Virus record (IMG/VR): IMGVR_UViG_3300031111_000036
Location: 1-23,761 of that record
DNA: 23,761 nucleotides
Strand: one strand, 5' to 3'
DNA from: a virus
Shown here: positions 1,461-17,023 of the stretch, piece after piece
How positions within the stretch are numbered: position 1 is the first letter of the stretch
Layout: each line of letters begins with the position of its first letter
Made by a program: the position numbers and the translations under genes
The notes under the pieces: generated by a model
Databases searched by the model: none
What the model was told of the DNA's origin: nothing
Seen by the model: the letters and a program-made list of their open reading frames with translations, nothing else

Positions 1461-1871
1461 TTAAATCGGCTTCCCCAACACGATCATCCTCCGCACCTCG
1501 TCCATGTCCATGTTTGGGCAGGTCTTGTGAGTCTTGGTTTGCGCCTCGTAATGTCCCTGAACCTGAACCTTTTCGGGACGAAACATGGCGATCAAGCCGT
1601 TGCAAAGAATGACCAGGCTCTGCATTTGTTCTTTATTGAATCCGCGAACTCCGGTCAGACAAATTCCAATCGAGTTGCGGTTTTTGCCTTGAACGTGCGC
1701 CCCGACCTCACTGATCTTTCGACCCGTCCGAACCGACCCGTCTTCCTCTATCACATAGTGATAGCCGATACGTTTCCACCCCCGCCCCCTGTGCCAATCA
1801 TCAATCTCAGCGGCGGTTGTACCAGGCGGCGAGTCGGAACAATGGATGATAATACGGTCTATCTTCCGCAT
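1461..1871 (-). CDS. Endolysin: N-acetylmuramoyl-L-alanine amidase (Amidase_2, T7 lysozyme-like)
   Basis: 136 residues, one domain, close to T7 lysozyme in length. It cuts the amide bond between muramic acid and L-Ala in peptidoglycan. Zn ligands expected from the T7 enzyme are His10 (IIIHCSDSP), His107 (GHYEAQTK) and Cys118 (THKTCPN); Tyr37 (RIGYHYVI) and Lys116 match the catalytic Tyr and Lys. GAHVQGKNRNSIGICL is the usual core. There is no signal peptide and no wall-binding domain, as in phages of Gram-negative hosts, so release should depend on a holin. A hairpin terminator follows directly. Confidence 0.95.
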   Translation of the reverse strand: MRKIDRIIIHCSDSPPGTTAAEIDDWHRGRGWKRIGYHYVIEEDGSVRTGRKISEVGAHVQGKNRNSIGICLTGVRGFNKEQMQSLVILCNGLIAMFRPEKVQVQGHYEAQTKTHKTCPNMDMDEVRRMIVLGKPI

Positions 1872-2134
1872 TAGTCGTCGTTTTTCGGAGCGTCATCCGA
1901 GTCAAGCCCGCGAATGTAGCCGCGCATATAGGCGAAAATCCTTTCTTGAAAGACGGTCTCAATCTTCTCCCACAGCTTACCGAGCTTTTTATTGCCCGTT
2001 ACGGTTGACCATCGCCCGTGCCTTTCCCCTAACGCCTCAGCCTTTTTCTCGGTGACGAACATCGGGATGACCGACGTTATAACCCCGCCGAGGGCAAGTG
2101 ACCCAATGGGAACTAAAATTGATTGCCAGTCCAT
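1871..2134 (-). CDS. Small one-span membrane protein, holin candidate
   Basis: 87 residues. The N-terminal span is ILVPIGSLALGGVITSVIPMFV (residues 6-27); the rest is charged and helical (EKKAEALGERHGRW, KLWEKIETVFQERIFAYMRG) with an acidic end. It starts 1 base after the upstream stop with a weak GGAT site and runs into the amidase gene as TAATG. A short membrane protein right before an endolysin gene is the usual place for a holin; one span and a long cytoplasmic-type tail are compatible with class III-like holins. No sequence family recognised, so this rests on place and topology. Confidence 0.65.
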   Translation of the reverse strand: MDWQSILVPIGSLALGGVITSVIPMFVTEKKAEALGERHGRWSTVTGNKKLGKLWEKIETVFQERIFAYMRGYIRGLDSDDAPKNDD

Positions 2135-2135
2135 A

Positions 2136-2399
2136 TCAAATCCAAAGTTTCATAAAAATGTTTATCCCCGTGATGATCCCACCGCCGCCGATGAACGCAA
2201 GAACGACATCCCATTTTCTATTGCGCTGTTTGTCCTCATTCACGTGTATTCGTTCGAGGCGGTCGACCTGCATTATCAGACCTGGCTTACCGTTTCCGCG
2301 AAGGATCTTATCGATCGCGTCAATTTTTCCCTCAATGCGCATCAGCGTTTTCTTTTGTTGCGATTCGCTGACGCGCCGGTCATCGCCATTCCACGTCAT
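2136..2399 (-). CDS. Small coiled-coil plus one-span membrane protein (XhlA-like, lysis accessory candidate)
   Basis: 87 residues from the ATG at 2399; GGAGGTG ends 5 bases upstream and the start overlaps the previous stop as ATGA, so the longer form to 2432 is rejected. The N-terminal part is polar and helical (QQKKTLMRIEGKIDAIDKIL, MQVDRLERIHVNEDKQRN). The C-terminus is one membrane span (WDVVLAFIGGGGIITGINIFM). Coiled coil plus C-terminal span is the plan of XhlA-type proteins that accompany holins. It stands two genes before the amidase, so a role in lysis is likely but not shown. Confidence 0.72.
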   Translation of the reverse strand: MTWNGDDRRVSESQQKKTLMRIEGKIDAIDKILRGNGKPGLIMQVDRLERIHVNEDKQRNRKWDVVLAFIGGGGIITGINIFMKLWI

Positions 2400-3145
2400 A
2401 GCGTCACCTCCACACCAAATTTGATCTTCCACGTCTCAAGTCCATCTTTGCGGTAAATTCCTCGAATAAACGGGGCGTAGCGGCGTTCATTCTGGCTCTT
2501 TATATCAATCGTCGCATCGACGGAGTGAACGTCTAAGAAGTCTGTTAAATAGGTTAATTTGCCATAATCCAAAAGCGGGGTTTTGAAGACGAACACTCCG
2601 TCAGCGTTAGCCCACGCTTCAGCCGTTACTCCGCCTCCAAAGTCAAGGGAGCCAACGTCGCGGAAAATGGTTACGGATTGCCGGTCGATATTAGCCGCTT
2701 CATGTAGATTTGACTGCAATTCGACAGCCCATTTGTTTGTTATCGGCTTCAAACAGGCAATGCCGTAACCCCAATAGTACAAGCCGTTCTCGCGCTCGCC
2801 GAATGCGCTTACGTTGAGAACGCCCCACGTCGCGCCGCCGCTCAGTTCCCAGTCGGCGGGATTTCCCTGAACGTTGGCGGTACGGATTGACAGCGCCCCT
2901 TCGATCACGTCGGGGGCGAATATGGTTAAAAAGGATTTTTTTCGAGGAGTAGCCGCAGGTTGCGGATCATATGGGTTGAGTAATTCGTCAGTTAATCCGA
3001 ACAGTGAGTCCGTTTTCTCTTCAGCGCGGACGGCGGCTGATCTAAAATCGTCCGTCCTTTCATCTCCTCGCGCCAAAGAAAAGCCGATCAGCAGCAGAAT
3101 GATGCCGATTGTAAGTGTGATCAGATATTTGATCCGTTCACTCAT
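2396..3145 (-). CDS. Membrane-anchored or exported protein, possible outer-membrane beta-barrel
   Basis: 249 residues. The N-terminus has a long hydrophobic segment (YLITLTIGIILLLIGFSLA) after basic residues, either a signal peptide cut near SLA-RG or an anchor. Residues ~30-75 are a charged/Pro linker. The rest, ~75-249, has repeated amphipathic strands (WGVLNVSAFGERENGLYYWG, KWAVELQSNLHE, GGGVTAEAWANADGVFVFK, VDATIDIKSQNERRYAPFIR, ETWKIKFGVEVTL), as in small outer-membrane barrels. The last residue is Leu rather than the usual Phe, which weakens that reading. It is joined to neighbours by ATGA overlaps on both sides. No family recognised. A barrel in the lysis-proximal part of a phage operon would be unusual. 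Confidence 0.7.
   Translation of the reverse strand: MSERIKYLITLTIGIILLLIGFSLARGDERTDDFRSAAVRAEEKTDSLFGLTDELLNPYDPQPAATPRKKSFLTIFAPDVIEGALSIRTANVQGNPADWELSGGATWGVLNVSAFGERENGLYYWGYGIACLKPITNKWAVELQSNLHEAANIDRQSVTIFRDVGSLDFGGGVTAEAWANADGVFVFKTPLLDYGKLTYLTDFLDVHSVDATIDIKSQNERRYAPFIRGIYRKDGLETWKIKFGVEVTL
2405..2411 (-). promoter_or_regulatory. Strong ribosome binding site of the coiled-coil membrane protein
   Basis: GGAGGTG ending 5 bases before the ATG at 2399, one of the best sites in the window. It shows that the lysis-accessory protein starts here and not at 2432. Confidence 0.85.
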
Positions 3146-5784
3146 CGCTCTGTCCGAATGTCATATAGTTTACTATTTGTAAACATTATAGTAACATTTT
3201 CGCCGTTTGTCAAGGCTGCCCACCATCTTTCTCGCGCCGTCGCCTGGTCATAGTCGTACCAATAGGGATAACTGGCAAGCGCAATCGGCGCAACTAACGC
3301 GGTTTCAGCGTGATTGTGGTATGCCCCGTTCGTTGGATAAGCATACGTCGAATACCCCAGCGAGGCGGAGATGACGTTGCCGCCGAGATCGTATGGAACA
3401 TAGATCACAGACTGGGCAGGTTGCTGAACCATAGACATTATGACTGGATCTGTGTAGCCCTTTTGAATGACGTGTGCGAGCCCGTACATCGTATAGTCAT
3501 TTGAAAAATAGTTCTTGCCCCAAACGCCCTCGTTTGGCCACATCCACAACGCCCACTGTTGAATTTTCTCGGCGATGAGATTAGTCTCAACGTCCTTCTC
3601 CAGCATGATATAGGCCATGAATTTATCGTAACCGCCAGATAATGCCCCCGTTCCATCCTGGTAGAGGTTCCAGTCTGACTCAACCCCAGCTTGTGAATAT
3701 CCGAATAATAGCGTTTTCGCAAATCCGTCCATGTCATCAGCATCGAACACTATTCCAGCATCGTAGAGTGGCTGAACGCAATACATCATTGTCCACGCGC
3801 CATGAGGCCCGTCTTCGAGGAGTCCTTCGGGCACGGGATCGCCGGGGTTGTACTCATACAGATACTCACCATCGCCCCCCGTGCTGATTGAATCGGCGAA
3901 CCATGTTCCATAATGCGCCGCATAGGTTGAATCAACCGTATTCCCGTCATACATATAGAGTTCAGCGTGCGCCCCCGCCAACGCCCCATCGAGATTAATC
4001 GGGAATGAATGGTTTTCAAGGTTGTCAATCCAATATCCAAATGTCGTCGAGTCTGCCCACTGTAAAGAATCAAATAACGCCAATGTAACCCTGACAGTAT
4101 CGATCCAATCCGTCAATTTTGGATAATCGCCAGCCAAACCGTCTTCGATTCCATAACGGCACATTCGGGCAATCGCCGCACTGGGAAGAGCTGACTTAGA
4201 GTTGACCGTCCAATTCAATGAGCTCTGCTGTTCCCCCCATCCTGGTGAATAATCTCCCCCGCGCTGATCGTCGCCATTCGTCTGTTCAACGTTGTCGCGC
4301 AAATACATAATAGTATCCGCCATCGCATAGGCGAGGTCGAGAAAATTTGTGTTATCGAATGTGCGATAGAGTTCAATGTTTGCAATGATGCACGCCGAGG
4401 CGTTTTGGTTTATGTTAATCCCGCGGATTGAATCGTTTGCAGCGTCATTGATCGAGTTGTAAGAGACGAGGAACCTGTCCTGCATGTGTTCGAGCGCAAG
4501 CGTCTCAATATTCGGGGTTGCTGCCAGCCCCCACGCAATGCCTTCAACCGGGTAATCAACTCCGTTAACAACGAGTGTGTCATATTCACCTTTCGCCGTC
4601 GAATCAGGAGAATAGCTTATTGTTCCCGTATAAGCCGCGCCATCAGCGAGAATTATTTGAGAAGGAAGGTCGGTCGTGAATGAAACAGCCCCCTCTTCCA
4701 GAGCGACATTGAATGTATCTCTTGCCCCTGAGATGTTGGTTATCACGATGCGAGATTTGCTCGTCGTTCCCAGATGAGTATAACCGAAATCAAACGCCGT
4801 AGGATGAACGGTAATATCTTGCCCGTCCTGTCCGACTTCGTGCGCGGCAAATCCCATATTGACGTTGTAATGGAAATTGTCTTGCGTCGCGCCCCAGGCT
4901 CCGTCCGTTATTGTCCCGTGATAACCGCTTCCTGAAACGTCATAAGAAACTTCGCCGTAACCCTCTGCGAGCGGATACATCAGCAGAGAGTTGGACGTTG
5001 CAACGTCTATGCCGCCGTTCTTTATTTCCGTTACTTCGGACGACGTTAGTTCATCGTCGAACAGCCTCACATCGCAGATATAACCATCGAATGGAGTATG
5101 GATTGATCCGTCGTCCAACTGGCTCCCGACGCTTACGTCTGCGGTCGTGTTGTTCATCGCGCCATAACCGTTGTCGTCTTTTGTCTGATCAACGGCAACC
5201 CCGTTTATGTAGATTTTAATCCCGGAAACGTCTTTATTCCCGCTGTAAGTACCGGCGATATGAATCCATGTGCTGTCATCGAGGGCGTCATCAACGATTG
5301 TATTTATTCGTTTCCCGTCGTCTGAGTCAAATATCGCGAACTGAGCCTTGCTTGAATAAATCGCAAGCCGCCACTCCTTCGTCGAATTATCGTCCACGTC
5401 GCATTTTGCAAAAATAACCTGGCTCGTCGTTATGTCATCAGTGTTAATCCACGCGCTTACGCTGAACGGGAGATCGTCGCCGTCTGTGAAACTGAGATCC
5501 GCCTCGTCTGATTTAACGATGAACGTCGTCGATCCGTCAAACGTCAGACAGTTAGATCCGGCGAATGATGAATTTCTCGCGTTGCGCGTGCGGTCATAGA
5601 TCGTCTGCCCAGAGAATCCTTTAACGCCCATGATCCATTGTACATCCGGCATATAGCCGCCGGGGAGCAAATACGAGAACTGTGACCGCCCTGAGACGAT
5701 GCGCCAGTCTATGCGCCCCCAACTGGAAGCGCATAGAAAGACGGCGACGATCATTATCAGCGCATAGCCGGATCGTTTCATCAT
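3142..5784 (-). CDS. Exported LamG-containing giant protein, possible glycan-active tail protein
   Basis: 880 residues from the ATG at 5784, chosen for its ATGA overlap; an extension to 5823 would bury the leader. Residues 1-~24 are a signal peptide (MMKRSGYALIMIVAVFLCAS). Residues ~70-260 form a LamG/concanavalin-like jellyroll: FSVSAWINTDD, WIHIAGTYSG, IKIYINGVAVD, and DGYICDVRLFDDELTSSEV. Then YDVSGSGYHGTITDG and TQDNFHYN follow, a phrase common in phage LamG tail proteins. Residues ~320-425 look like an ASPM/SPD-2/Hydin-type Ig fold (FDFGYTHLGTTSKSRIVITN). Residues ~430-880 are long, aromatic-rich and helical with regular Trp/Tyr/Gly turns, like an alpha/alpha-toroid glycan lyase or hydrolase, but no catalytic motif is certain. 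The Cys in FLCAS is not a proper lipobox. It may bind and cut surface polysaccharide. Confidence 0.75.
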   Translation of the reverse strand: MMKRSGYALIMIVAVFLCASSWGRIDWRIVSGRSQFSYLLPGGYMPDVQWIMGVKGFSGQTIYDRTRNARNSSFAGSNCLTFDGSTTFIVKSDEADLSFTDGDDLPFSVSAWINTDDITTSQVIFAKCDVDDNSTKEWRLAIYSSKAQFAIFDSDDGKRINTIVDDALDDSTWIHIAGTYSGNKDVSGIKIYINGVAVDQTKDDNGYGAMNNTTADVSVGSQLDDGSIHTPFDGYICDVRLFDDELTSSEVTEIKNGGIDVATSNSLLMYPLAEGYGEVSYDVSGSGYHGTITDGAWGATQDNFHYNVNMGFAAHEVGQDGQDITVHPTAFDFGYTHLGTTSKSRIVITNISGARDTFNVALEEGAVSFTTDLPSQIILADGAAYTGTISYSPDSTAKGEYDTLVVNGVDYPVEGIAWGLAATPNIETLALEHMQDRFLVSYNSINDAANDSIRGININQNASACIIANIELYRTFDNTNFLDLAYAMADTIMYLRDNVEQTNGDDQRGGDYSPGWGEQQSSLNWTVNSKSALPSAAIARMCRYGIEDGLAGDYPKLTDWIDTVRVTLALFDSLQWADSTTFGYWIDNLENHSFPINLDGALAGAHAELYMYDGNTVDSTYAAHYGTWFADSISTGGDGEYLYEYNPGDPVPEGLLEDGPHGAWTMMYCVQPLYDAGIVFDADDMDGFAKTLLFGYSQAGVESDWNLYQDGTGALSGGYDKFMAYIMLEKDVETNLIAEKIQQWALWMWPNEGVWGKNYFSNDYTMYGLAHVIQKGYTDPVIMSMVQQPAQSVIYVPYDLGGNVISASLGYSTYAYPTNGAYHNHAETALVAPIALASYPYWYDYDQATARERWWAALTNGENVTIMFTNSKLYDIRTER

Positions 5785-6833
5785 TTTACAAATACCTTTC
5801 TCAAAGTTGAATCGGTCGTACACATTTCAAGCAACCTCGCAACCGGGAATTGCTCGCCGGTCAGCGTCGCGGTCCCGCTTACATAAGTCGTGCAGGCAAG
5901 TGATGAGTAAACCGTAAGCGAGTCGAGGGGAAATGCCTCGTCTGGATCAACTGTATTCAGAGAGTCTTGAGTTATAACAGCGAGAATCGAGTCCTGCGAA
6001 ACGCTGATCGTTCCCGTTACCGCTGTAAACGCTCCAAGACACCCACCGGCGGCGGGATAAAGTTGCTGTCCCGGCCATAAATAGCTCCCGTCGGTTTCAA
6101 TCCTGGCGTCGGTCATCCCCTGAATACAGACAAATCCAATGTCGTTATCGGGAATGTAGTCTTCCCATGCCCCGCTCGCGTCTTTACCTCCAACGACAAC
6201 GCCGGCGAAATCGCCCTCAGCCTGATCGGACGCGCGAACGCCACAGATAGGCAATGCGATAACCTGGTACGTTGTCCATCCGCTGGTAGCCTGGCTATCC
6301 ATTACGCTGTCTATCTGCGTCCACCAATACGCCGAGGCAGTCAATACCTGGTCATCGCCGTCTGTAATCGGGAGAGTTTCTGATTGTGCAGCCCCGTCAG
6401 CATCGAGTCCGTATATCCACAGCGAATCATCAGAAGACGACCCCGACGCTGCGTAAACGTACAATGAATGCGCCCCGCCCTCATCGGACAAGTCAATCTC
6501 TATTCGCGCAGTCTTGCCTGCTGCGGTGTCACAGACAGCTATCCTCGTCGTGTCCCAAACAACAGTCGCGCCGACATCGAGTGTATCGCCCTCTTTATTG
6601 AGAACAGTAAACAGCAAACGCCCCTCTTCGGCTATGGTCGTTCCCAAATATCGAGGCGTAAGAACCTGCCCGCGCAGTTCCTCGTATTGAATCCAATCGC
6701 GCAACTGAATCCAGTTTGAAGGAATCGTCGGATAATAATCTGTATAGCTCGTCCGAGGAGTCTGCGCAAATGCTGAAGCGATTATCATAATCACAACAAA
6801 CAGCGAGCCAACATAAGCGATCTTTTTAAACAT
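5781..6833 (-). CDS. Exported six-cysteine beta-rich protein of unknown function
   Basis: 350 residues. Clear Sec signal peptide: Lys3-Lys4, core YVGSLFVVIMIIASA, cleavage AFA-QTP at ~23. The mature part is beta-rich and acidic. The block WIYGLDADGAAQSETLPI, then DGDDQVLTASAYWWTQIDSV, reads like phage structural proteins. A late block, YLWPGQQLYPAAGGCLGAF followed by SILAVITQDS, resembles small capsid-decoration proteins; both are inferences. There are six Cys, as in the upstream neighbour. An AGGAG site precedes the ATG, and the stop overlaps the next start as ATGA. Function unknown. Confidence 0.75.
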   Translation of the reverse strand: MFKKIAYVGSLFVVIMIIASAFAQTPRTSYTDYYPTIPSNWIQLRDWIQYEELRGQVLTPRYLGTTIAEEGRLLFTVLNKEGDTLDVGATVVWDTTRIAVCDTAAGKTARIEIDLSDEGGAHSLYVYAASGSSSDDSLWIYGLDADGAAQSETLPITDGDDQVLTASAYWWTQIDSVMDSQATSGWTTYQVIALPICGVRASDQAEGDFAGVVVGGKDASGAWEDYIPDNDIGFVCIQGMTDARIETDGSYLWPGQQLYPAAGGCLGAFTAVTGTISVSQDSILAVITQDSLNTVDPDEAFPLDSLTVYSSLACTTYVSGTATLTGEQFPVARLLEMCTTDSTLRKVFVK

Positions 6834-6842
6834 CAGTATCTC

Positions 6843-7511
6843 CTAATTTTTGCAGACGAGCCGCCAGTTGACGATTGCCTGTTCGAGGATGTCGTCAGCG
6901 GCGTAAAACTTGAATCTCGCAGCCTCACAGACCGGAAGCCTGACAGGATAAACAACCCATTGACCCGTCGGAGCCGCTGATTCAATCGGCGGCAACCATC
7001 TCCAGAGTCCGTAAAACGGATGAGTGTAGTTGTCGAAGTTAATGAATTGATCTGACGAGTCAGCCCAGGTGCATATATCGTTGTCAGAAAGTTTGCACTC
7101 GAAAATAATCTTCAACAAATTGGAACTGTCAGCATCGTTAATCGCCGTTGAGCAAGTGTAGCTGGTCGTCAACGTGTCCAGCTTCACCCAGAGATCAAAT
7201 AGTTGCGGGTTGTGAGCCGTTATTGAGTCGCTTAGTGCATAATTCGGCGGGAGTGTCGTGCTATAATTCGACCCCCACTGGACTTGCATCCAGTCGGTCG
7301 AAAGCGTATCGTTTCCCCAGGATGAATCCTCAAGAGCCGCCGCGCACAATGTGTCAACGCCTTCATAGTAAAACATGGACGTTTGTCCGGTAATCACCGG
7401 AGCCGATGGCTGTGACTTCCAGTTTGGGTTAAAGTTCACCGCCTCAGCCGCGCCTGAGACCGTCGTAAAAATGAGCGCGGCGAATACGGTCAAGAAAATT
7501 AAGGCGCGCAT
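6843..7511 (-). CDS. Exported six-cysteine protein of unknown function
   Basis: 222 residues. Sec signal peptide at 1-~21: Arg2, hydrophobic core LIFLTVFAALIFTTV, cleavage near SGA-AEA. The mature part is rich in Trp, Tyr, Asp and Ser and holds exactly six Cys, an even count that suits disulphide bonds in the periplasm. The end contains WVVYPVRLPVCEAARFKFYA, echoing YQVIALPICGVRAS of the next gene. A perfect AGGAGGG site lies 4 bases before the ATG, so expression should be high. It sits between the fibre gene and another exported protein. No family recognised; it may be a virion accessory protein or a cell-surface protein. Confidence 0.75.
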   Translation of the reverse strand: MRALIFLTVFAALIFTTVSGAAEAVNFNPNWKSQPSAPVITGQTSMFYYEGVDTLCAAALEDSSWGNDTLSTDWMQVQWGSNYSTTLPPNYALSDSITAHNPQLFDLWVKLDTLTTSYTCSTAINDADSSNLLKIIFECKLSDNDICTWADSSDQFINFDNYTHPFYGLWRWLPPIESAAPTGQWVVYPVRLPVCEAARFKFYAADDILEQAIVNWRLVCKN

Positions 7512-7529: not shown

Positions 7530-9086
7530 TTATCCAATTATGGTCTGTTGTTCAAATTCAATGTCAAGAGCGCGGGATAATTTCGCCGCGCCGCTGGCGT
7601 CTGCGGTCTTGATCGAAATCTCAATCTCGTAAACGGTTCCCGCCGTTAGCCCAGATGTCAGGTCGAGTTCAAGAACAGACGGAGTCGCCGGGGTTATAGA
7701 CGTGTTTACAATCCCTGTTTTTTCAACAGACATGACCTCTGTTGACTCAAGAGCCGTTATTGCGAACTTTACTGATCCGGCATAGCTGGCGTTTGCTACG
7801 AATGGCAGACAATACAGAGCCGCTCGCTGGTTTTCAGCCTTGTGTCGATAGAACCGGCGATATTTCACGACGTAGCTCTCTGTCGTGTCCTGGAACTCAT
7901 CGAACTCGGCGGCGGCGTTTGTGTCTGCAGTCGTCGCCATAATTTCCGGCGGAGTTCCAAGCGTTAGCGTTATTGCTTCGCCGTCCGCGTCTCGATTCGG
8001 CGGAATGTTTCCGGCGGCAATCGTAGCTACGTCGGAATTGTATGGATCTGAGGCTGTGTCGAATGCGACGACGACAACGGAGAATGGCTCATTTCCAATC
8101 TTGAAATAGGTCATCGTAGCCATACCGTCCGAGTCCGGCGTCAGTCTGTGTCGCTGGCAGCTCGCCCTTAGCGTCGCCAAAGTCGCCGCAAGCGTAGCCC
8201 CAGCAGACACCCCCGCAATCGATCCCGTCTTGATGTAAACCTCATAAAGGTTCACCTTTGCAACTTCAGCGGCGTTGACCGACATACTGATTGAAACATA
8301 GCGGTTTCCGTGCCGGTCAGGCTGCCCGGCGTTGACAGCGCAACCGACGGAAGGCGTCCCCGCCCACGCATCACCTACAACCAGAGAATCGACGGTTGTT
8401 TTCACAGCGTCGAACTGATCATATTCAACCGCATCACCGCTCGTTGCGCCAGCCGCCAGCCCCGACAACTGAATAGCCGAACCGCCATTGTCGAGAACCA
8501 GTTCAGCGCAGTCTATCTTCAGATTGCGGCGCGTTGACTTTGCTGCGTCGGAACAGGTAATCTCCAGCGTTGACCCGTCGGCTGTGTCAACATGAAGAAC
8601 CGTATCTGACCCAGATGCTGGCTTTACTTTGATTGTAGGATGTTCATTCCCCGACGTGTCGGCCTTGTGTTGCGCCCCCTGGAGATTGCTTATCGTGTTT
8701 GAGTCGGAGTCTATCGTTTTATTTTCAAGAGTCTGCGTGTCGTCGTCTCCTACAATCTCGCCAGTAACCCCGTGAGTCCCGCTCCCAGAACCTTCATGCG
8801 TGGCAAGGTCAGCTGAGGCATTGCCATCAGCGAGCGTTATGTCTTCAACAATTGTGGTCGTTGATACGCCCCCGTCGTCTGAGGCGATAATCGAGTGTTT
8901 GTAGGTCGGATCATATTTATCGGAGTCGTCGATGTCTATTGTGAAGATGTACGCCGATGAACCCGCCGTCCACGCCGCTTGTACGTTGTCAGCATCACCG
9001 AACGACCGCCCGTCTCTGACAAGCTCCCAGGTGAACCCCGTATGCTCTTCAGCCCGATAAAAATATAGTTTTCTGTTATCTGCCAT
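7530..9086 (-). CDS. Tail fibre / receptor-binding candidate
   Basis: 518 residues. The N-terminal ~90 residues form a beta-rich attachment-like region (ELVRDGRSFGDADNVQAAW, AYIFTIDIDDSD). The phrase DDDTQTLENKTIDSDSNTISNL region (~115-137) is a motif found again and again in phage tail fibres. It is followed by Asp/Ser/Gly-rich beta segments, and a C-terminal part (~395-518) with Tyr/Arg-rich start (KYRRFYRHKAENQ) and beta-sandwich-like strands (VYEIEISIKTADASGAA). There is no signal peptide, unlike its four downstream neighbours. Ribosome site AAGGA precedes the ATG. It most likely forms the host-binding fibre; the receptor is unknown. Confidence 0.8.
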   Translation of the reverse strand: MADNRKLYFYRAEEHTGFTWELVRDGRSFGDADNVQAAWTAGSSAYIFTIDIDDSDKYDPTYKHSIIASDDGGVSTTTIVEDITLADGNASADLATHEGSGSGTHGVTGEIVGDDDTQTLENKTIDSDSNTISNLQGAQHKADTSGNEHPTIKVKPASGSDTVLHVDTADGSTLEITCSDAAKSTRRNLKIDCAELVLDNGGSAIQLSGLAAGATSGDAVEYDQFDAVKTTVDSLVVGDAWAGTPSVGCAVNAGQPDRHGNRYVSISMSVNAAEVAKVNLYEVYIKTGSIAGVSAGATLAATLATLRASCQRHRLTPDSDGMATMTYFKIGNEPFSVVVVAFDTASDPYNSDVATIAAGNIPPNRDADGEAITLTLGTPPEIMATTADTNAAAEFDEFQDTTESYVVKYRRFYRHKAENQRAALYCLPFVANASYAGSVKFAITALESTEVMSVEKTGIVNTSITPATPSVLELDLTSGLTAGTVYEIEISIKTADASGAAKLSRALDIEFEQQTIIG

Positions 9087-14098: not shown

Positions 14099-14539
14099 TT
14101 ACTCCTTCGCCAGTTTGAAAACCGCGACTTTCATTCTGTTCGCTTCGTCAACCGTGATCGTCGCCATGCCACTCGAATTGTAACGCATCGGCACTTTAAA
14201 ATAGGCGATGTTTGGTTTGCTTGAGCCGCTTTCAAGTGGGATCGTAAGGTCTGACAGCGTTACAGTTCCATAACCAGCAATCCTGATGGTTGAAGCCGGG
14301 GCGGAAACAGTCGCAGTACAAGTCCCGCCGGTCGAGTCATAGAGTACAACGAATGTCAGGTTATTGTTCGGAAACGTCACCCCGTCCGTTGTCGTGATCA
14401 GCGCAAAGTTTGTCCTCGTGAACGTACTGTCAACGAGTTCAACGCTCGTAATCTCAACGGGCGTGATTTCAGTCGCGGCAGCCCAGACGATTGAGACCCC
14501 AATCGTCAACACCAGCAGCGACATTAAAAAATGCTTCAT
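14099..14539 (-). CDS. Signal-peptide protein inside the tail module, beta-rich
   Basis: 146 residues. The first ~21 residues form a textbook Sec signal peptide: Lys2, hydrophobic core LMSLLVLTIGVSIV, and an Ala-type cleavage site near WAAA. The mature part is beta-rich (GVTFPNNNLTFVVLYDS, TCTATVSAP, TVTLSDLTIPL, YNSSGMATITVD). Its plan, with 'TFPN', a short strand pair, and a 'tvtvp' phrase before a final strand, resembles small phage structural proteins that normally lack a leader. It overlaps the tail terminator gene by ATGA and precedes the major tail protein by 3 bases, so it is firmly in the operon. The role is unknown: a virion decoration protein with an added leader, or an exported protein. 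Confidence 0.8.
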   Translation of the reverse strand: MKHFLMSLLVLTIGVSIVWAAATEITPVEITSVELVDSTFTRTNFALITTTDGVTFPNNNLTFVVLYDSTGGTCTATVSAPASTIRIAGYGTVTLSDLTIPLESGSSKPNIAYFKVPMRYNSSGMATITVDEANRMKVAVFKLAKE

Positions 14540-16513: not shown

Positions 16514-17023
16514 TTAGACCGCAGCAACCGCAGCCACGCCGGTATTGCCCGCGCTCAGGTCGGGAATATCACCGCCGCCAGCCGATTTCAGACCGACGAC
16601 GTGCGCATTAACAGCCGCCAACGTGTTGGGACCCGAAGCCGCCTTTGTGAAAACAAGCCGCGCATATCGCTTATTACCGCGATACGAGAACCGGTGAACC
16701 ATCGACTTAACCGCGTCGCGAATTGTGTTTGAAGTGATCGCCAGCCAGATGCCGGACGCGATCGTTGCGAACGTCCCGCCAACATCAGCGGCGTCAGTCA
16801 CAACGGCGAAGTCGGAATCGCTCGTAGTGTCGGAAACCTCAAGCGTGATCGTGTACTTATCGGTTGACGAATATGTCCCGGAAAGCGCGCCAAACGATAC
16901 CTCAAAATCTATCTGCTCACCGCCCTTTTTGTCAACGATGCCGGTTGTGGTCGTCGCGGAAATCGAAACAGGGGCGAGAGGCATTGCGATCTTGCTCGCA
17001 TAGAGTGGATCATAGTAACTCAT
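16514..17023 (-). CDS. Unassigned virion protein downstream of capsid gene
   Basis: 169 residues, no named family recognised. The sequence is rich in Ser, Thr, Gly, Ala and Val with alternating beta-type patterns (TGIVDKKGGEQIDFEVSFG, DKYTITLEVSDTTSD, KRYARLVFTKA), ending in an Ala/Val-rich tail. There is no signal peptide or membrane span. It has a strong GGAGGG ribosome site 4 bases before the ATG and follows the major capsid gene by 11 bases. Beta-rich proteins in this slot are often decoration proteins or abundant structural proteins, so a head-surface role is a reasonable inference, not shown. The segment that pairs measured-signal phrasing with RYARLVF resembles other uncharacterised phage structural proteins. 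Confidence 0.7.
   Translation of the reverse strand: MSYYDPLYASKIAMPLAPVSISATTTTGIVDKKGGEQIDFEVSFGALSGTYSSTDKYTITLEVSDTTSDSDFAVVTDAADVGGTFATIASGIWLAITSNTIRDAVKSMVHRFSYRGNKRYARLVFTKAASGPNTLAAVNAHVVGLKSAGGGDIPDLSAGNTGVAAVAAV

Follow-up and report, generated by a model that had tools for sequence, protein, structure and literature searches.

Introduction

Export of virion proteins is established for the inoviruses, whose coat proteins pIII and pVIII carry signal peptides and are inserted through the host export machinery. A tailed phage can also encode exported proteins: in phage lambda, lom and bor, which specify proteins of the cell envelope, lie among the tail and lysis genes. The virions of tailed phages are generally assumed to be completed inside the cytoplasm. 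An endolysin with a signal peptide provides one case of a tailed-phage late protein that is sent through Sec (PMC8951688), and a survey of DGR variable proteins found that those of phages, unlike those of bacteria, are without signal peptides or transmembrane regions (PMC6199706). Our search of the full-text literature, which had partial coverage and is weak evidence on this point, returned no description of Sec leaders on virion proteins of tailed phages.

Here we analyze an IMG/VR virus record of 23,761 bases (the window, taken at its full length), which is part of a siphovirus-like genome with all late genes on the minus strand. Gene order runs from a methyltransferase, small and large terminase subunits, a portal with a MuF-like end, a protease and the major capsid protein, through a phrog_5707 protein, adaptors, head closure, neck, tail terminator, gene 14099 and the major tail protein, to a probable tail chaperone, the tape measure, tail-tip-like genes, the tail-fibre-like gene 7530 and a block of four genes; two small membrane proteins, an amidase and two further genes lie beyond the block (genes are named here by their lower coordinate). 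The phage is distant from catalogued phages, with 48.5% identity between its terminase and the best match. We find predicted Sec leaders on five of its late genes, and we relate these to leader gains on virion-type proteins of other phages.

Results

The original prediction had singled out four consecutive genes between the tail fibre and the lysis genes, and all four open reading frames are confirmed on the minus strand, together with their ribosome sites or ATGA coupling. Gene 6843 (6843-7511) has an AGGAGG site and follows an 18-nt gap, and gene 5781 (5781-6833) has an AGGAG site and a 9-nt gap. Genes 3142 (3142-5784) and 2396 (2396-3145) start within ATGA overlaps, as does the neighboring gene 2136-2399 on the lysis side. 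For the 880-residue product of gene 3142 the start is the ATG at 5784, which overlaps the preceding stop, and a longer reading from the GTG at 5823 is unnecessary. The base composition of the block is the same as that of the rest of the phage. Directly upstream lies the leaderless tail-fibre-like gene (7530-9086, minus strand), which matches phrog_12150 weakly (6e-6). Downstream are the probable lysis genes (1461-2399, minus strand): 2136-2399 with a C-terminal span, 1871-2134 with an N-terminal span, and 1461-1871, an amidase without a leader whose match to phrog_822 (2e-39) is the basis for the lysis label.

It had also been proposed that each of the four proteins begins with a signal peptide or an N-terminal span, and in all four we find a Sec-type leader with no later membrane span. 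A fifth leader gene had been overlooked. This gene (14099-14539, minus strand; 146 residues) belongs to the tail module, where it is flanked by the genes for the tail terminator and the major tail protein. Leaders were called with a heuristic tripartite rule that asks for K/R, a hydrophobic core and an AXA-type site. The five genes conform to it, each with a positive n-region, an uninterrupted core and small residues at -3/-1, and gene 3142 is the weakest. Near the N-terminus, the highest Kyte-Doolittle mean over 11 residues reaches 2.9-3.3 in the four block proteins and 2.83 in 14099, against 2.23 in a holin-like gene and at most 1.61 in all other genes of the window. A second span is absent from all five (inner 19-residue maximum at most 1.28). 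By eye, plausible cleavage sites are AFA|QTP in 5781, SLA|RGD in 2396, VWA|AAT in 14099 and a position near GAAEA in 6843; the site in 3142, SWG|RID or LCA|SSW, is weaker. A lipobox is found in none of the five. The rule selects 5 of 25 genes in the window, compared with 31 of 1844 N-termini (1.7%) in related phage late regions, a background that includes some lipoproteins and host flanks (P(≥5 of 25) = 5e-5). Leader proteins are also richer in cysteine than the products of the other structural genes (1.15 versus 0.54 per 100 residues; Fisher p 0.016), a modest difference found post hoc, and each of the three upstream block proteins has six cysteines after its leader. This excess is compatible with an oxidizing destination. 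Their sequences make it most likely that the leaders work as Sec signals, with export and cleavage as the predicted outcome.

The block proteins have no whole-length homologue. None of the four was matched to virion families, and searches against PDB sequences returned nothing substantial. Single-sequence scans with four proteins of the window found no close relative of the phage. In tblastn searches against phages, three block proteins and 14099 returned nothing; the remaining block protein matched through its LamG domain only. Gene 6843 encodes 222 residues, with the leader at about residues 1-24, and matches no known family. The 350-residue product of 5781, with a leader that ends at AFA|Q, has no family above threshold: Phage_cement_2 (PF09956) scored 13.6 bits over 34 residues, below the curated cut-off of 24. 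Profile comparison of these two proteins with two virion families gave no match. Both look like small accessory proteins.

Gene 3142, in turn, looks like an exported carbohydrate-active protein. After the leader there is a LamG lectin domain at about residues 104-251 (PF13385; 78.6 bits against a curated cut-off of 27.6, E 7e-22), a weak Ig-like segment at about 322-396 and a helical domain (about 455-692 matched). Choice-of-anchor D (NF012200) scored 23.8 bits, below its curated cut-off of 45. In a genome search the helical domain matched an uncharacterized protein of the Planctomycetota group (E 6e-9), and pairwise BLASTP of the two gave 9e-11. A profile built from the two sequences recovered more of the family, and among seven such proteins five have leader-like N-termini; the domain has no Pfam match and was not found in 289 genomes of the Verrucomicrobiota group. 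From its sequence pattern, we suspect that it is an alpha/alpha-toroid carbohydrate-active enzyme. AlphaFold2 models made without an alignment were not used (pLDDT 30 for this domain and 36 for 2396).

The 249-residue product of 2396 matches no known family. We considered an Ail/Lom-type outer-membrane barrel for this protein and found it unsupported, as there is no Pfam match and its amphipathic strands score z 0.6 against shuffles. Some 40 nt upstream of its start is a perfect sigma-70 promoter, TTGACA-17-TATAAT (3185-3213, minus strand), inside the 3' end of the 880-residue gene. It is the sole perfect match in the window, where 0.03 would be expected by chance. Because it has this promoter of its own, 2396 may be transcribed with the lysis genes; it may thus join the lysis transcript and take part in lysis. 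Overall, the four-gene block is probably not one uniform module.

The fifth leader protein can be placed more closely. Past its leader, 14099 is homologous to a leaderless protein of another phage, L052 2150-2494 (phmmer 3e-9; 7e-9 in an enlarged set), which in turn matches phrog_16194, annotated 'tail protein' (6.6e-13); 14099 itself has no direct match to phrog_16194. In the alignment, the leader of 14099 is an N-terminal extension relative to the L052 protein. A further leaderless member adjoins the tail tube gene of phage MW202777, and a position beside the major tail protein is common to all three. A similar slot in L152 is also taken by a leader gene, with a weak family match (0.012). 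UOF81700 of MW202777, labeled 'putative secreted protein', was considered as a precedent and set aside: its translation is without a leader and resembles a tail tube protein.

The main evidence combines 14099 with cases from other phages, in which virion-type families that are otherwise leaderless bear leaders as clean N-terminal additions. In L120, gene 4228-4707 adjoins the capsid gene and begins with a 20-residue leader, followed by a nearly complete phrog_5707 domain (1.5e-15). This family, of unknown function, has leaders in 0 of 24 other matches from two phyla, and its member in the window (16514-17023, minus strand, after the major capsid gene) is likewise leaderless. L204 8012-8575 begins with a 26-residue leader, which is missing from the members of its family in L046 and L203 (about 5e-30) and in L209, L211 and L217; in all of these phages the gene comes right after the capsid gene. 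L204 has four consecutive leader genes after its capsid gene, in parallel to the block in the window. In L130, a Desulfobulbaceae contig, a protein with tail-fibre motifs (7.8e-9) and one with head-decoration repeats (5e-33) bear leaders, and their genes are preceded by a fibre-like gene without a leader. Two leader genes occupy the fibre slot of L046.

In three other families the leader has been kept: L074 5331, L209 12598 and L204 9030; L203 12504 and L204 9623; and L074 4495, L209 12054 and L211 5069. Pairwise E-values within these families range from 1e-3 to 3e-24. Because leaders are retained across diverged phages in all three, they are likely to be under selection. In the first family they are alike in kind and hardly in sequence, as signal peptides would be.

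Other leader-like starts and gene arrangements were seen in this set. Leader genes stand in the tail-fibre slot of prophage-like regions of Bacteroidota (L095 15247-16383, Tenacibaculum soleae; L132 15404-16285, Aquimarina sp. 2201CG14-23; L098 14830-20763), the first two with weak family matches. Homologous proteins with signal-peptide-like starts occupy the tail-tip slot of Alphaproteobacteria-type phages (L114 13687-15147, L067 6955-9564, L094 13324-15576). A 52-residue reading frame, L046 6276-6434, resembles a shrunken copy of L074 5331 that has kept the leader and the last residues and lost the middle. A glycosyltransferase-like gene, read from sequence, lies among the head genes of L204 (4262-5413), L203 (7809-8990), L046 (1967-3121) and L209 (14432-15577). 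A contig of the Verrucomicrobiota group with a related capsid gene has no leader genes nearby, and the host of L046 and L204 is not fixed by it.

Discussion

Our tentative preference is for genuine Sec export of proteins that are mostly of accessory virion type and that would attach to particles, or act in their vicinity, when the cell lyses or later; we put this at somewhat short of an even chance. Exported accessory virion proteins are the simplest reading because several leaders sit on families that occupy virion slots. At least five proteins with Sec signal peptides would be synthesized late and exported by the Sec machinery of the host. These accessory parts, which could be a fibre, decoration, adhesin or depolymerase, would then wait in the periplasm or envelope until lysis, when they would have to find particles. 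We infer that signal peptidase would remove the leaders and that attachment would follow the opening of the cytoplasm. A broader proposal, about which we are more doubtful, is that accessory proteins of head and tail have gained Sec leaders repeatedly, in several tailed phages that are only distantly related. Part of the virion would in that case be produced beyond the cytoplasm, where it might fold oxidatively, and be fitted to particles only at lysis.

The original prediction had left the choice between a module that remodels the surface of the infected cell and structural proteins added outside the cytoplasm. The structural alternative gains from the tail-slot homology of 14099 and from the leaders added to virion-slot families elsewhere. 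Surface remodeling fits the lectin- or enzyme-like 880-residue protein, and it leaves those same observations unexplained. In its developed form, as the main rival, it holds that the exported block never enters the virion: 3142, with the other proteins as helpers, would strip or alter polysaccharide on the surface of the infected cell and of neighboring cells, aiding release or excluding competitors. The leaders on all four block proteins are real by our measures, 2396 adjoins the lysis genes and has its own promoter, and 3142 combines LamG with a helical domain whose relatives include exported proteins of Planctomycetota. LamG domains are found in annotated phage structural proteins too, however, and no catalytic family was identified for 3142. 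With 14099 in the tail module and leaders on virion-slot families also to be accounted for, we regard this explanation as rather unlikely. It is compatible with export of virion parts, and we do not claim one role for all five proteins.

The host-like domains of 3142 and the perfect promoter of 2396 also suggest morons, which are captured host genes for exported proteins, signal peptides included, that are expressed apart from the late operon and benefit the lysogen or exclude superinfecting phages. Lambda carries lom and bor, for exported envelope proteins, near its tail and lysis genes. Yet the spacing of 6843, 5781 and 3142, with gaps of 18 and 9 nt and ATGA overlaps, is too tight for each to form a unit of its own. 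Gene 2396 does have a perfect promoter, but no terminator-like site follows it. The composition of the block matches the phage, and capture fails to explain leaders added to virion families; we consider it quite improbable that the block is a set of morons. Least probable, in our judgment, is that the leaders are hydrophobic segments retained in the mature proteins, as membrane anchors during assembly or in the virion for a role in DNA entry. The long core of 2396 (about 14 hydrophobic residues), the weak site of 3142 and the hydrophobic starts of some tail-tip proteins (L114, L067, L094) would suit such a role. The starts are mostly positive, however, with AXA-type sites directly after the core, and the leaders of homologues drift in sequence while keeping their kind, as signal peptides do. 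Moreover, leaderless sisters function in the same slot.

If accessory proteins of head and tail are exported first, virion maturation gains a stage outside the cytoplasm. Disulfides would become possible in virion proteins, as would the sharing of parts among particles from neighboring cells, and parts of the virion would be overlooked wherever annotation sets aside late genes with leaders as contamination from the host. Since families that have gained a leader also have sisters without one in the same gene slot, the question can be tested directly.

The proposed export resembles and departs from described systems in several respects. As with pIII and pVIII of inoviruses, virion proteins would carry signal peptides. 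Inoviruses assemble in the membrane and are extruded, whereas the HK97-type capsid, terminase, tape measure and lysis genes of the window are those of a tailed phage. Compared with lom and bor, the window has no Pfam match to such families, leaders are also present on virion-slot proteins, and three of the four block genes are without a unit of their own. Sec-dependent endolysins are lysis enzymes, whereas the leaders described here are on proteins of fibre, head and tail slots. They also depart from the norm of the DGR survey, which examined phage proteins of receptor-binding type (PMC6199706). The comparison at the level of families is with phrog_16194 and phrog_5707: the cores of 14099 (through L052) and of L120 4228, respectively, appear homologous to these families and occupy the same slots, and the typical members of both are leaderless.
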